In this document: positions 28,404 through 61,110 of the stretch, piece by piece
Position numbering within the stretch: position 1 is the first letter of the stretch
Layout: the number at the start of each line of letters is the position of its first letter
Program-made: the position numbers and the translations under genes
Source: Schizochytrium sp. TIO01
Taxonomy: Eukaryota > Sar > Bigyra > Thraustochytrida > Thraustochytriidae
Reading direction: 5' to 3'
Assembly: GCA_004764695.1 (NCBI GenBank)
Contig: SMSO01000031.1
Coordinates: 9,211,761-9,275,760 of the forward strand
Length of the DNA stretch: 64,000 nucleotides
Notes under the pieces: generated by a model
What the model was told of the DNA's origin: nothing
The model's input: only the letters and a program-made list of their open reading frames with translations
The model's database searches: none

Positions 28404-29142
28404 GATACTCACATACTAGTTCACTTAGAGATTAACCTATAAAATTTGCGACTGGCATTTCCTATGGTGGCATGGGGCTGATAAGGTCTAATTGCGGGTT
28501 GATGTTTTTGAAGTACAATTTCCTCAGCAAATAACAAGTTTAAACCAGAAGAAAAGCTTGGCTTTGTGAATGAGCGCTTGTCTAAGCCAACAAATGACAC
28601 ATCATTCGAGCCGTCTTGATTTTGATCCATCTTGTTAACTTATTGAGTTCTCAAATTTAGGCAAAGGAATAACACGGTAGTTTTCACTGAACCAAAGTGC
28701 AAGCTTGTGGTGAATCTCAATAGTCCAGCAGGGCGCACAAGCCTGGCCTTTCGAGATTGGCCCCTCTACGGATGATTTGTAGATACTCTGGTGTATCTAA
28801 GATAGTGGTGTGGTCAGTTCTGCGTTGCTCGCAGCCGCCAGAACAAACCCCAGCCATATGTGCGTTCAAAGTCGTCAGCTAGGTACATGCGATTGCCTCC
28901 GGGGAACTTCCCAAAGGAAACTTGCTGAGACGCCAGACCTCTGGTTGAAGTACTTTGATAATCTGCATGCACGTTTGCTTCCACTTGTCGTGTTTGGAGC
29001 TTGCGGTTCCTTGACTATGCCATTTTCTTACCTAGCATAAACTTCTTAAATAATTATAATATATCATAGATCTTCTGATATGGAATAGACACTACCATTT
29101 GAAGCTTATACAGGTTTTAACGTTCTCATAGGTACTGCATTC
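28404..29142 (-). mobile_element. Decayed non-autonomous IS607-like element, copy 1
   Basis: On the minus strand this stretch aligns, with gaps, to 60154-61110 along its whole length. The order is a 5' non-coding segment, then remains of the TnpA serine recombinase, with the helix-turn-helix and PGG(K/N)R(M/L)Y region (reading PGGNRMY) around 28885-28920. Next come a short GRGAN-type block and the C-terminal part of a TnpB/Fanzor nuclease, then a non-coding right end (28404-28475). The resolvase core and the zinc ribbon present in the other copy are deleted here. Stops and frameshifts break every part, so no product is possible. Boundaries are where alignment to the other copy fades, so true ends may lie slightly outside. 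IS607 elements normally leave no target-site duplication. Confidence 0.75.
28645..28712 (-). pseudogene. TnpB/Fanzor C-terminal fragment in copy 1
   Basis: In one minus-strand frame this reads HHKLALWFSENYRVIPLPKF followed by ENS. It matches the conserved TnpB/Fanzor segment in which a histidine/lysine helix is followed by a hydrophobic strand and P-x-F just before the Arg-rich RuvC helix. A stop follows, and the continuation (an Arg-Met-Met helix) lies in another frame at about 28590-28640. The first part of the nuclease, with the REC and WED regions and the first catalytic Asp, is absent. Confidence 0.7.
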
Positions 29143-30077
29143 GTTACTGCATTTATGAGCGACGCAGCTTTGGCTGAATCATTGTTTACTCCAGTGTCCT
29201 CCGACAAGCAAAAACATGATTTCAAATGCACTATTCCTACCTAGGTACACATAACCATTGCTTCAATGATCAGAATAATCAACTGATAGCAGTATAATCA
29301 TTCTATCGTACAAGAAAGGGCTAGCAATGCAGATCTTTGGCACTCAAGTTAGCCAAAAGCTCTCTAAAGTATTCTTTGAGTATAGGAGGATGGAACTCAA
29401 AAATAGCGGTAAATTTGTTTTCTTGTAGGTTCTGGTTTAGGTGCTTAGTACAAAACTAAATCAACACACAGCCCCACCCTGCTCAAAAGGAATTTAAGAG
29501 AGACGAAAATACCAACGAAAGGTCTCTCTACAGGCCGATACAATATTGATCGCCAAGTAAATTTAGATAATCATTTTTATTTGTTTTCCAATTACACAAC
29601 TCTATCATAGAAGAACCATTCAAAATTACGAACTCTATTTGTGTAGAAATACACGAATGATGAACAACAAACATATGAAACAAGATCCGTATCAGGGCTG
29701 CTAAGAAAACACCAATTGATTTGTTCAGATAAAGGGCGCAAAACCCTAATGAATGGACACACTAACAAAAAAAGAATTAAAAGGAGCAAACAGGAAATGA
29801 AAATAGTTCCAAAGCACAAAAGTTGTGTGCAAGGACTGTGAGTAGATGCTAGAATGTTCAAGTAAGAATCACGCGTATAGTACATCATCATGTCTGGATA
29901 ATGTAAAAAATATATAGGCATGTAAGATTTCACAGAGTCTCACAGAAAATCGATGAAGTCTAACGACAGTTGTGCTGGTAAAAATTGCCAATCAAACTAC
30001 AGACAAATTGGAGTTAAAACAAAAATAAAAGTTCAGAGTTTACAGACTTCTGATAAGTCTAAACCCTGCGCAAGATA
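29143..30077. other. Intergenic, no supported gene
   Basis: AT-rich sequence between the IS607-like copy and the 3' end of the WW-SH3 gene, including that gene's probable 3' UTR on the minus strand. A 113-codon minus-strand frame at 29592-29933 has no recognisable motif and is probably chance. Confidence 0.5.
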
Positions 30078-52600: not shown

Positions 52601-55035
52601 CGAAACTAGCTTATGATAGATCTGCGGCGTTGCCGGTAATCTATTTGAGAGCTAAAGGGAGAATTCTCTGAGATACTTACCAGAACAAAACTATAAAAGG
52701 ATCAACGTCGCTGTTATCGACTCCGACTTTTGCTAATAGCATGTTCATGATAAATGTCGAGATAGCTTGAAGTTTTTTGCAAAGCTTTTCTGGGATCAAG
52801 CAGTTTTTTAATCAATTTTTGCTATATCATGGGTAGGTAGGTAGTTGGTAAAGAGCAGGGCCTTACTCAATTAACTCTAGGCAAAACAATTAACTGGGCA
52901 ACTCATATCTTGAACCCTTTGACTTGGGTAGAAATCTAAGCCAAGCCAAAGTAATTGTCTGCAAATACCATGTAGGCGCCTTGGCTTTGCCATGAGATGA
53001 AATATTGATACCCAACCAAACTCTTCATGATCCTCACTCAGTAAGACTGATGATCCTCGCTCACTGACCTCAGCTTTGTCCGAAGTCAGAAGGCCGACAC
53101 GTTCTGCACCTTCCAAATTCACTCAGAAAACCTACTGGCTGGAAAGAAAGAACAAAGGTCTGAAGAGTTTGAATGAAAGATTCTTGGAACGGGCGGTCAT
53201 TGGTAGAAAAAAATAGTAGGTATCATTAGTGCATAGGCCCGTAGTACAGACCTACCATATAGACACCTTTAGTTTTTTTTAAAACAGTTTTTATTGTTAT
53301 TAATTTTATATACTTTTTAATTAAACTAATAACATATTGTCGCATATAATTACATTATATTCTTTAAAAGGCCTAGTCAAAAAGAAGGAGAAAAACTACC
53401 TTGGCAACTACTACCTAACTTGTGCTTTTCCTCTTTTCCTGACATAATGATTCTCTCATACATCATGTACTCTGTTCTATGTAGGTATGTTTAATACCAT
53501 AAGCAGTCGTTTTGAGCGTTTAGGTACCTATACATAGGGTACATATCGTTTCTGATAGTGTTTACCTATAGTACGTAGAGGTTTTCGTGCATAGTGAGTG
53601 CCTATGAATTCAGCCTGCTCCGGTACGTAGGTAGCAGTAGGCTTTCACTAACCTGCATTACTTTCCTCCTCTACTATTCTAAATCAGACATAGGATTATA
53701 CGTACTGGGTGCCTACTATTGTTGATCCTGGTAACTTGTATTCAGCAAAGGTAGTTGGCTTTCGGTTTGCTGGTGGACTATCTTAGTACATGCACAAAGC
53801 TTTCAAAAGTGATTGATTCAGCCTAAGCCACGCAAATTTACACTCTGTCCTCCTTACCTCCAGCTTGGTACCTATCCAAGTTGAACTTTCTACTCTCTGT
53901 AGCCCTGGAGTTGCAAGATAGATGGGCCTCAAGGTCAAACAACTTCAATAGTCACAGTGGTATGTACGTACCTAGGTCTGTATTTGTTTTAAAATCTTCG
54001 AACGACTTACCCACCATTGGCTCAAGCCAACCTCAACCCTCCGGGCTTTCTCGGCTCCATGGCCATCACAAATTTAATTCCTGATGATTGGCTCTTATCC
54101 TCTTATCTTACCTGAGACTTTCTCCTCTTCCTCTTACAAGTCTTCAACTTGGAAGGTTTTTACAACAGTATAGTTGCGCTCTTTCTCTTTTTTAAATCTT
54201 CTTTAAAGCTTTTTTCCTTTTCTTAGATGAAGTAGCCTTATAAAAATATATAGGCCTGTGTCTATAGAAATACATTTTATATTTTTTTAATACCAACGTA
54301 CCTAATACGTAGGTAGTAACTAGGAAGTACAAATATTGTATTTAAAAACTGCAGGTTTTCTCTCACCTGAGCCATGTTAAAAAATTAATTTGTCACCGTT
54401 CGGGCAACAAGACTTCAGGATATTTCCATGTTTGGGTAAGCTGCATGTGCTTCACACCTCTGCGTCAGACAAAAATCCAGCATTTCATCCTCTGGAGCGA
54501 TAAAAATGATAGAGATTTAAAGCTCTTCAATTATCTCAAAAGTGTGAGTAAGATAAAGTACCTGCTTCGAAGAGCACGAATTTGGACATTCTCTAAAAGA
54601 CACTGGCTGATAGATCCTCCGTAAAACCTGCGCATGTTCCGAGGCAATCCGATTATTCGCCCGGCAAACCCAAAGTCGAGGAATGTTTGAAATCGAAAAC
54701 GTTTATCCGAAAGAATGCTAAAACTTAGGCATGCCATAATAATAAAACATAATAGTATTTCTTTCTTTATAAAAATAAATAAATAAAAAAATAAAAAATA
54801 CAAACACAGATGCAAATGAAAAAAGGAAAAGAACATGAACATGAAAAGAAGCTAAAACCTAGGCTTGGAATAAGAGGACATTCACAAAGATCAATAGGAT
54901 GACTCAGCCTGAGCAAATAAAGAGCAAATATGTTTCTTTGATTGTGAAGTTTGTTTCCTGAAGCTTTAGAACCACTACATTGTATAATCTGAACGGCTAG
55001 GTACGATTACTAGTCGAAGTGACTTGAGCAATCAC

Positions 55036-55080
55036 CCAAATGATACCTTTTATTCATGATATAAATGAGATATTATAGTT
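55036..55080 (+). repeat. Fragment related to the left part of the IS607-like element
   Basis: CCCAAATGATACCTTTTATT, then CATGATATAAAT and ATATTAT, match 60188-60242 in the left non-coding part of IS607-like copy 2; an extra 7 bp (CCAGCCA) is found only in copy 2. The flanking bases do not continue the match convincingly, so this is a small isolated fragment or a solo end. Confidence 0.5.
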
Positions 55081-56443
55081 TTCAAGGATAAAATAAATGC
55101 GTCATTATCGATCAACCAAGGATTTGAAAAGACAAACAAGCAACAAGATTCCGCCATTTCCGAATTCAGATTACCCGGCATCATCTTATCCTAATTACCT
55201 CCGTTCGTTACGATCGTTTAGATGGAGACTCTTGATTTGGCATGGCAGATGTTACATTCATTCTGAAGCAATGTCAACGAGGACCGAAAGGTGCTGCGCA
55301 TACATTCAATTCAAGTCATACTTACAAAGAGAAACAAATGGTACTCAGGGGCGATCAACATATTTCATGAGTCATGAATCCGTGGTGCACAAGAACTATC
55401 AATTTGAGATTATTTAGATTATGGTGGGACGGAGAATTGGTAATAATACCACGCTTTTCTCATCGTTCTCGTCTTCTATCTGAGCCACGGTAAATTAACT
55501 TTTGAGCTCATTTTTTTGCTTTTTTTTTTTTAATTCGATGAAAAATATATGTATTAAATATTTATCCCTGTTACATAGTAGCTCTCAGAGACGATGATGT
55601 AGATGTTAGTACCGACTATGATAGTTGTAAGTTTTTCTCTCTTTCTTTTTTAAAATTAAATCTTTTCACTAGTTTTTAAATTTGAAGGCATCAAAAGGGA
55701 AGCTTTTCTTTTCTTTTCTTTTTAACAATAAAACATGATACCAGGTCGGTTGCTGGCATTTCATCGATTAAGAAACTGCAAGGTCTAGGGGGGTTAGCCC
55801 GAATTGCGCGCCAATGAATGCAGTCGGCGTTCGGAGAGGTGCAGCTCATGCTTTTCTCTGTATTTAGGCATACCGTGACTCTTTGTAGCTTTGGGTCACT
55901 TGGAAATCCGCAGTTTAGTATTCACTTTACATGGAAATGATGGCCACGTGCTCCAAGAGCTGGTTTCGTAGGTGCCTCTAGGTACCTAATAGGATAAGAA
56001 AGAAAAAAAACCAAAAGAAAAGAAGAAACTCCGAATAGACTCACAAACCTTCACATTCTAGCGTTCCAAGTTTGAAGCTTTCTTCTTCAAAGAGGAGGCA
56101 ATAAAACGTGGCAAACTCTATCGTTGTTGAGATAAGCAAGTAAGCCCTCTAGACGTGTTTTCTTGATAAACAGTTGAATTTGATGGTGGTTATGAACACA
56201 GCCTACCTAGGTACGATCAGTGATACCTCGTGTATTTGAGACAACCAGGTATCTCTTGCGCTACCTATGTAGAATCGATTCCAGGCTTGGTCCTACTGAG
56301 AATGCCAGAGCTGGACATTGGTGCCTGTGGTCAGGTTATCAATCTAGAGACAATTTGTACATGCATCATAACTGATGTAGTAGTGAACGAAGTCTAAGGC
56401 GCCACATAAATGAACCAAGTCTGTGGCTATGGCGCGCAGCCGT

Positions 56444-60153: not shown

Positions 60154-60485
60154 GGATTCTGCACTTATGAAAACGTTAGAACTTAAAACCCCCAAATGAT
60201 ACCTTTTATTCCAGCCATCATGATATAAATTAAATATTATATTTTTGTTAGGTCTTTGTGGTCTTTGTTAAGAGGTATGAAAATGGCACAGCCCAGGAAC
60301 CACCAAGCTTGAAACACTACAAGTGAAGCAAACCTTTAATTCAAATTATCAACCACAAGTTTGGCATCTCAGCAAGTGCCCTTCAGGTGCGTCCCCAGAG
60401 GCAAGTGCATATACGCAAGTGACGTTGTTGAGCGCATCTTTGGCTACTGTTCCGGAAGCCGCAAGAAACGCAGCATCCTACCATT

Positions 60486-60632
60486 ATCTACGCTAGAGTC
60501 TCCTCCGTCAAGCAAAAAGAGAATCTCAAATGCCAGATTCGAGCCTACCCAGACACCTCCGCCGTCTACAAAGATATCGGTAGAGGGGCCAACTTCAACA
60601 CGCTGGGCTTGCGCGCCCTACTGGACTGCTGA
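60486..60632 (+). pseudogene. IS607 TnpA serine-recombinase fragment
   Basis: In the frame ending at the TGA at 60630-60632 this reads IYARVSSVKQKENL, then a Q-I-R-A segment, DIGRGANFN and LGLRALLDC. This is the catalytic N-terminal resolvase motif, with the active-site Ser in YARVSS and the D-I-G-x-G-x-N-x-x-x-x-G-L-x-x-L-L segment of IS607-type recombinases. A helix-turn-helix residue cluster and a PGGKRLY-like motif (seen as VPRGKCIYASDV at about 60393-60428 in a different frame) lie upstream as expected. The C-terminal part is deleted, so the fragment cannot recombine. Confidence 0.75.
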
Positions 60633-60700
60633 AATCACCGCAAGCTTGCACTTTGGCTCCCGGCCGTGAAAACTAACGTGTTATAAATTTGAAACCTCCG

Positions 60701-61006
60701 ATGGTCAACAACTTAACAGGATGGATCAAAAGCAAGACAGTTCGAATGATGTGTTATTGGGGTCGTTTTAGCTTCCGTCAGGCGCTCATTCACAAAGCCG
60801 AACATTTAGCACGCCAGTGGCGAAAACTGGTTATTCTCCGAGAGGATTGTATTCCTAAATCATGCAATGAATGTGGTAGAATCCGCGACAAACTCGAAAC
60901 ATCGGAGGTTTTCAAATGGCCTTAAAACTGCAAACACGTAGTTAATCGTAATATCCACGCCGTCAAAGGCATCCATCTACACTACCTTTCCAAGGACACG
61001 ATTTAA
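60701..61006 (+). pseudogene. TnpB/Fanzor C-terminal fragment with degenerate zinc ribbon and RuvC-III
   Basis: The frame opens at an ATG (60701) and reads an RMMCYWGRFSFRQALIHKAE helix, then a hydrophobic strand and LREDCIPKSCNECGRIRDKL. This is the TnpB/Fanzor arrangement: RuvC helix, catalytic Glu and the first Cys pair of the zinc ribbon. The second Cys pair is disrupted: FKWP, where FKCP is expected, is followed by a TAA at 60923-60925. In the same frame after the stop, NC and VVNRNIHAVKGI correspond to the RuvC-III D-R-D-x-N-A-A-R-N-I block, with the catalytic Asp changed to Asn. A further stop at 61004-61006 may be the original end. The first catalytic Asp lies in the deleted part. Inactive; it preserves the family signature only. 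Confidence 0.72.
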
Positions 61007-61110
61007 GAATTTTGTTTGAGTCACAGGTTAGCTTTCGCGATTGGGCCTTGTCACCATTGGAAATGCAAAATTTGATAGGTTAATTTCTAAGTGACTACTA
61101 ACAGTATAAG

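Follow-up and report, generated by a model that had tools for sequence, protein, structure and literature searches.

The window (the whole 64,000-nt stretch of DNA that was analysed, G000:C30:9211761-9275760, from a eukaryotic assembly of 64.06 Mb in 37 contigs) carries two copies of a short non-autonomous element on opposite strands. Copy B lies on the plus strand at 60160-61093, including the end words TG at 60160-60161 and 61092-61093. Its left-end non-coding segment (60162-60282) is followed by a tnpA remnant (60283-60626) that ends in YARVSS...GLRALLD and by a TnpB/Fanzor C-terminal remnant (60627-61006) with the HRKLALW region and the first CxxC of the zinc ribbon. The right-end non-coding segment (61007-61093) is the site of reRNA-like hairpins in the family. 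Copy A lies on the minus strand at 28422-29136, and its end words, again included, differ: AG on the left (29136-29135) and TG on the right (28423-28422). Read against a full-length copy, its left-end non-coding segment (29024-29134) reaches up to the tnpA ATG (29023-29021), and is followed by a tnpA remnant (28723-29023) from which most of the YARVSS region is gone and by the TnpB C-terminal remnant together with the right end (28422-28722). Only gene remnants were found in A and B, with broken reading frames in both.

Comparison of the two copies by BLASTN gave three colinear blocks on opposite strands, of 247 bp (75%, E 3e-40), 327 bp (68%, E 7e-24) and 55 bp (78%, E 4e-8), and the same search of both regions gave no match between the flanks beyond the element. 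The match proposed in the sequence-only reading is therefore real and includes both ends, but its outer limits had been set slightly too wide. Copy A has also undergone a private second loss, in which 36 nt (28784-28819) occupy the place of B positions 321-411 (91 nt) and with which most of the YARVSS region disappeared. An inverted element fragment just outside copy A (29157-29229, plus strand) matches B positions 344-380; it derives from the recombinase segment that is mostly missing in A, was matched by 14 of the 44 copies used as queries, and represents some local rearrangement. Elsewhere in the window, positions 55035-55082 align at 80% over 56 bp with B positions 38-93, which belong to the left end; this may be a fragment or may reflect low complexity.

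A common junction in a dispersed family

In both copies the tnpA GLxALLD codons are joined directly to the TnpB EIHRKLALW codons, between 60626 and 60627 in B and between 28723 (tnpA side) and 28722 (TnpB side) in A, so that the joint pointed out in the sequence-only reading was visible in both sequences. Its claim that most of both genes had been lost was also borne out. In fourteen young full-length copies the match to B extended to either side of the joint and was interrupted precisely at B 473/482, and the intervening tnpA and Fanzor coding sequence, measured in six of these young copies and absent from A and B, was 1194 nt in three and 1191 nt in three.

A 35-nt word across the junction had 24 matches in the genome at up to 3 mismatches, compared with 0 for the reversed control, and the recurrence of the junction is thus not due to chance. 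An alignment was then made of A, B and 38 further short copies, without the longer copies or relics L073, L075, L078 and L079. All 40 were colinear through the single junction, CTGGAC joined to TACCGAGATTCACC, with scattered decay and no case of a different junction. The joint could be read on both sides in 37 of the 40, a small gap lying over it in L043, L059 and L067; among the 37, GAC was exact in 25 and TACC in 18. Conservation across the 40 copies dropped sharply to background at B positions of about 5 and about 940.

The genome holds at least 74 distinct related places, at least 65 of which span the junction, distributed over 14 contigs. These places were tallied from DNA searches with A, B and a third short copy (L064) and from one 35-nt pattern search, with the weakest matches of the first search omitted; both counts are lower bounds because each DNA search scored 40 of 217-220 first-look candidates. 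The recurrence of one junction at many places, expected if a non-autonomous derivative had spread, was thus found. Together with the full-length relatives described below, and with neither differing junctions among the 40 aligned copies nor matching flanks of A and B seen, it upholds that proposal.

Full-length relatives and element ends

Pfam profile searches of the genome returned 27 places with a resolvase match (PF00239) and 34 with a zinc-ribbon match (PF07282). In 11 of the former no stop interrupted the domain, which extended as far as position 142 or 143; 15 of the latter had an open frame of at least 615 aa (one of the 15 with a partial zinc-ribbon match). The left end, an unbroken resolvase domain and a long Fanzor frame were combined at eight places (C32:2.84M, C33:2.52M, C35:88k, C13:3.96M, C36:678k, C4:1.00M, C13:5.82M and C13:7.08M). 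Full-length relatives with open tnpA and Fanzor genes, which had been predicted as the source of the recombinase, are therefore present in the same genome. Sixteen right ends were 94-100% identical, every one adjoining a resolvase match, and 14 young copies were 94.5-99.8% identical over about 1.84 kb.

A representative young copy encodes a tnpA product of 232 aa (PF00239, 5e-20) that overlaps the Fanzor gene. The nearest PDB structures of this protein were IS607-family TnpA (6dgc, E 1e-18; also 3ilx and 6dgb), so that an IS607-type TnpA occurs in the full-length relative and remnants of it alone in the window copies. The Fanzor product matched PF07282 and PF12323 and has the DPG motif (ALDPGVRS) and a displaced glutamate (ESYTSKTCNEC), the latter six residues before the zinc-finger CxxC, as in the definition of Fanzor given in the available text of PMC10711439. 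The second cysteine pair is CPNPKC, not CxxC. The nearest PDB chain to this protein, whose gene lies beside that of the IS607 TnpA, was the mimivirus TnpB-like L79 (9b0l, E 3e-19). Single-sequence queries of viral and genome contig collections, which detect only close relatives, confirmed no relatives of the Fanzor.

Older full-length relics were also found. In L073 and L079, tnpA and TnpB sequence lies to either side of the joint, with DNA between; in L075 and L078, TnpB sequence persists upstream of it. L073 has its left end in common with the short family (match to B 10-473). L078 (around C36:2019020-2019411) has similar ends but is built differently inside, its matches to B positions 277 and 482 being separated by 154 bp, and is possibly another deletion derivative.

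Among the young copies there is a defective class (L014, L015, L017, L019, L116 and L117; C32:1870798, C5:1374200, C36:1883650 and C31:5077397). Four of the 14 young copies compared have a TAA in common within tnpA and an open Fanzor frame. An insertion of about 294 bp occurs at one point early in tnpA at five places (C36, C31, C5 and two on C13); its sequence did not differ between the two copies in which it was read through, contains TAACC repeats and is without GT-AG borders. These defective copies look like Fanzor-bearing elements that moved without a recombinase of their own.

Taking anchors that exclude the end word and including the old full-length relics, TG preceded 20 of 34 left-end matches (as CTG in 16) and followed 26 of 41 right-end matches. 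The flanks were otherwise near background, except for C at -3 (19/34) and A or T as the first letter after the right word (34/41). We do not claim the C before the core in the left flank as a footprint of a Fanzor TAM, since in the available text of PMC6188088 the TnpA of bacterial IS607 alone prefers (G)GG. Young copies end in CTAAGAG, and those with intact TnpA use AG, unlike the TG of the short family; by our placement CAG adjoined the element in 7 of the 11 left ends shown. Their ends are similar to those of the short family but diverged, and BLASTN of B against young copies started at B position 120 at the earliest, which indicates that the young and short left ends are too diverged for full-length alignment.

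At 38 loci, including the relic L078, no target duplication beyond chance was detected: the shared flank word averaged 1.92, compared with 1.93 for shuffled partners. Terminal inverted repeats reaching 10 nt were absent from both A and B, B having one internal 12-nt pair. The same dinucleotide at both ends without duplication or terminal inverted repeat is the signature of IS607, except that TG or AG replaces GG. The end word here is TG in the old family and AG in the young copies, not GG, and this does not exclude membership, since most but not all IS607 members end in GG in the available text of PMC6188088 (Chen et al., 2018).

Folding of the last ~110 nt of young copies gave several strong hairpins. 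Some short copies (for example L002) take the same fold with different letters, and in others, including A and B, it has decayed. The reRNA of IS607 TnpB is about 150 nt long, lies at the right end and extends past it, according to the available text of PMC10711439. For two helices in 31 distinct sequences, 88.1% of cells were paired, compared with 28-43% when the helices were slid and 86.6% in shuffles, a small excess that 11 of 500 shuffles reached. The covariation score was 0.138 compared with 0.124 for shuffles, with 33 of 500 reaching it, and double-sided changes in the helix pairs of the 31 sequences were not above shuffles (3 vs 2.6), for which reason we claim no covariation. A right-end RNA structure in the family is plausible on these folding results. 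In L011 and L024, both of which carry a young copy, no Rfam family matched at an E of 1 or below.

Age of the family and alternative explanations

The mean K2P distance among the 40 short copies was 0.437 (780 pairs; range 0.289-0.862). Pairwise differences among them at codon positions one, two and three were flat in the TnpB part (0.248/0.242/0.238) and in the tnpA part (0.271/0.252/0.264), and were 0.251/0.271/0.272 in the upstream frame that is in phase with TnpB. However, comparison of the short copies with one young full-length copy gave a clear codon-position bias in the TnpB part (0.232/0.214/0.401), and no such clear pattern in the tnpA part (0.289/0.223/0.302), where two frames overlap. 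Flat differences among the short copies and biased differences from the young element indicate that the short copies are not coding and that the autonomous lineage is, as judged by its Fanzor.

The FastTree phylogeny of the TnpB part was star-like, with internal branches of up to about 0.03, many of them poorly supported, and terminal branches of about 0.10-0.26 for short copies except A (0.45). The old full-length relics L073, L075, L078 and L079 were interspersed with the short copies, and a separate branch of about 0.21 substitutions per site led from the burst to the young lineage. We read the tree and the codon data as suggesting one burst with full-length elements present, followed by decay and a later re-amplification of the autonomous lineage. 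No young short copy was present among the 40 candidates scored for each young end; the unpartnered ends in those lists were a left-end fragment at 89% and a right-end fragment at 91%.

Several short copies lie fairly near each other on C30 (9208787, 9240164, 9271914, 9282791 and 9343930), and the closest pair, L064 and L070 (K2P 0.289), is 11 kb apart on C32, as might occur if A and B were parts of one segmental duplication or if segmental or tandem duplication of host DNA had spread the family. That explanation is extremely improbable, given that the flanks of A and B are unrelated, that conservation is at background past both ends and that the junction-spanning places are spread over many contigs; duplicated flanks, which the sequence-only reading had named as evidence against mobility, were absent. 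It is scarcely more credible that the middle was lost independently in each copy at a hotspot, as could happen when repair joins short repeats. The relic L079 does have GAC at both sides of the break, and a short common word of this kind could favour deletion, but the same joint in the 37 readable copies, the lack of a coding signal and the star-like tree fit one deletion copied many times. Moreover, L073 and L079 have DNA between the tnpA and TnpB sides, L075 and L078 retain TnpB upstream of the joint, and no young full-length copy among the candidates scored had lost exactly this segment in place.

In the young copy at L024:1379-3235 the Fanzor frame was open far upstream through the tnpA overlap, giving 618 aa from an ATG. 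Since 1194 nt is a multiple of three, a deletion of this length preserves the upstream-extended Fanzor frame, and 1191 nt is likewise a multiple of three. The short element might accordingly have been kept for a small protein, with the frame that overlaps tnpA running on into the TnpB C-terminus. We consider this highly unlikely, because differences among the 40 short copies were flat over codon positions in both TnpB frames and neither A nor B has an intact frame. Segmental duplication, recurrent deletion and a coding mini-protein were all rejected on the evidence of flanks, junction, tree and codon positions.

Proposed origin and relation to known elements

The features of an internal-deletion element were present in the short family: ends akin to those of autonomous relatives, a common junction, dispersed copies and no coding constraint. 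A and B are very probably decayed members of a non-autonomous, internally deleted transposon of the IS607 family in a eukaryote. Because neither has a working enzyme, TnpA is presumed to have acted in trans, and we infer that the short copies moved in this way. The ancestor consisted of a left end, the tnpA serine recombinase gene, the Fanzor/TnpB gene and a right end. Comparison with full-length copies shows a single loss of about 1.2 kb, from mid-tnpA into the final third of the Fanzor gene, which left an element of ~0.93 kb that retained both recombination ends and is present at 65 or more sites. Excision and insertion would have been carried out by IS607 TnpA from full-length relatives, with a 2-bp exchange at the TG word. 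After this old burst the short copies decayed free of coding constraint, while the autonomous lineage evolved on under coding constraint and was recently amplified again. The drivers at the time of the burst were probably older full-length copies that are now decayed relics, today's intact relatives being a later lineage.

Eukaryotic IS607/Fanzor2 elements, in the available text of PMC3627910 (Bao and Jurka, 2013) and PMC10711439 (Yoon et al., 2023), likewise have an IS607-type serine recombinase beside Fanzor, the DPG motif and a right-end RNA region; the first CxxC is preceded, at a distance of six residues, by a glutamate, and terminal inverted repeats and target site duplications are lacking. 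However, they are described there as gene-bearing, whereas the window copies belong to a gene-less, internally deleted family of high copy number. For Fanzor1, these texts do describe elements that are non-autonomous or internally deleted, and these belong to other transposon types. Bacterial IS607 (PMC6188088, available text) shares the TnpA family, the identical end dinucleotide and the lack of terminal inverted repeats and target duplication, but has GG where the elements here have TG (old) or AG (young), and differs from them in host and in their non-autonomous character. MITEs and internal-deletion elements, as far as the available text of PMC4495683 and PMC3852290 describes them, are similarly short and gene-less, have ends in common with autonomous elements and exceed these in copy number; MITEs are 100-600 bp long (PMC4495683), in contrast to ~0.93 kb here without terminal inverted repeats and target duplication. 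The inverted repeats and target site duplications by which MITEs are strictly recognised are both lacking from the short elements. The bacterial IS200/IS605 PATEs are also gene-less, are thought to be moved in trans and are said to keep guide-RNA sequence. They are bacterial and rely on a Y1 HUH transposase, in both respects unlike the short IS607/Fanzor elements here. No gene-less IS607/Fanzor2 family in a eukaryote appeared in the available text of the literature surveyed (PMC3627910, PMC10711439, PMC6188088, PMC4495683, PMC3542288 and PMC3852290), drawn mainly from outside subscription journals and repeat databases, and such a family may be described elsewhere.

We also consider, as a speculative and rather unlikely extension, that the short elements were guide-RNA carriers, in which the last third of the Fanzor gene and the right end gave a working reRNA. 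Fanzor from full-length copies would then have been directed to sites left by short copies, restoring them, and the change of the autonomous ends and word from TG to AG would have ended this feeding, so that only old short copies are found. If true, a gene-less element would have borrowed both a recombinase and RNA-guided retention.

Transposition of IS607 outside prokaryotes was still called uncertain in 2015, in the available text of PMC4495683. The old burst of a single derivative and the recent full-length copies, up to 99.8% identical, provide two layers of evidence for it in a eukaryote. The family also offers a natural test of the guide-RNA needs of Fanzor, namely why the end of the nuclease gene that holds the guide RNA was retained in the derivative, and bears on the coevolution of autonomous elements and their gene-less parasites.
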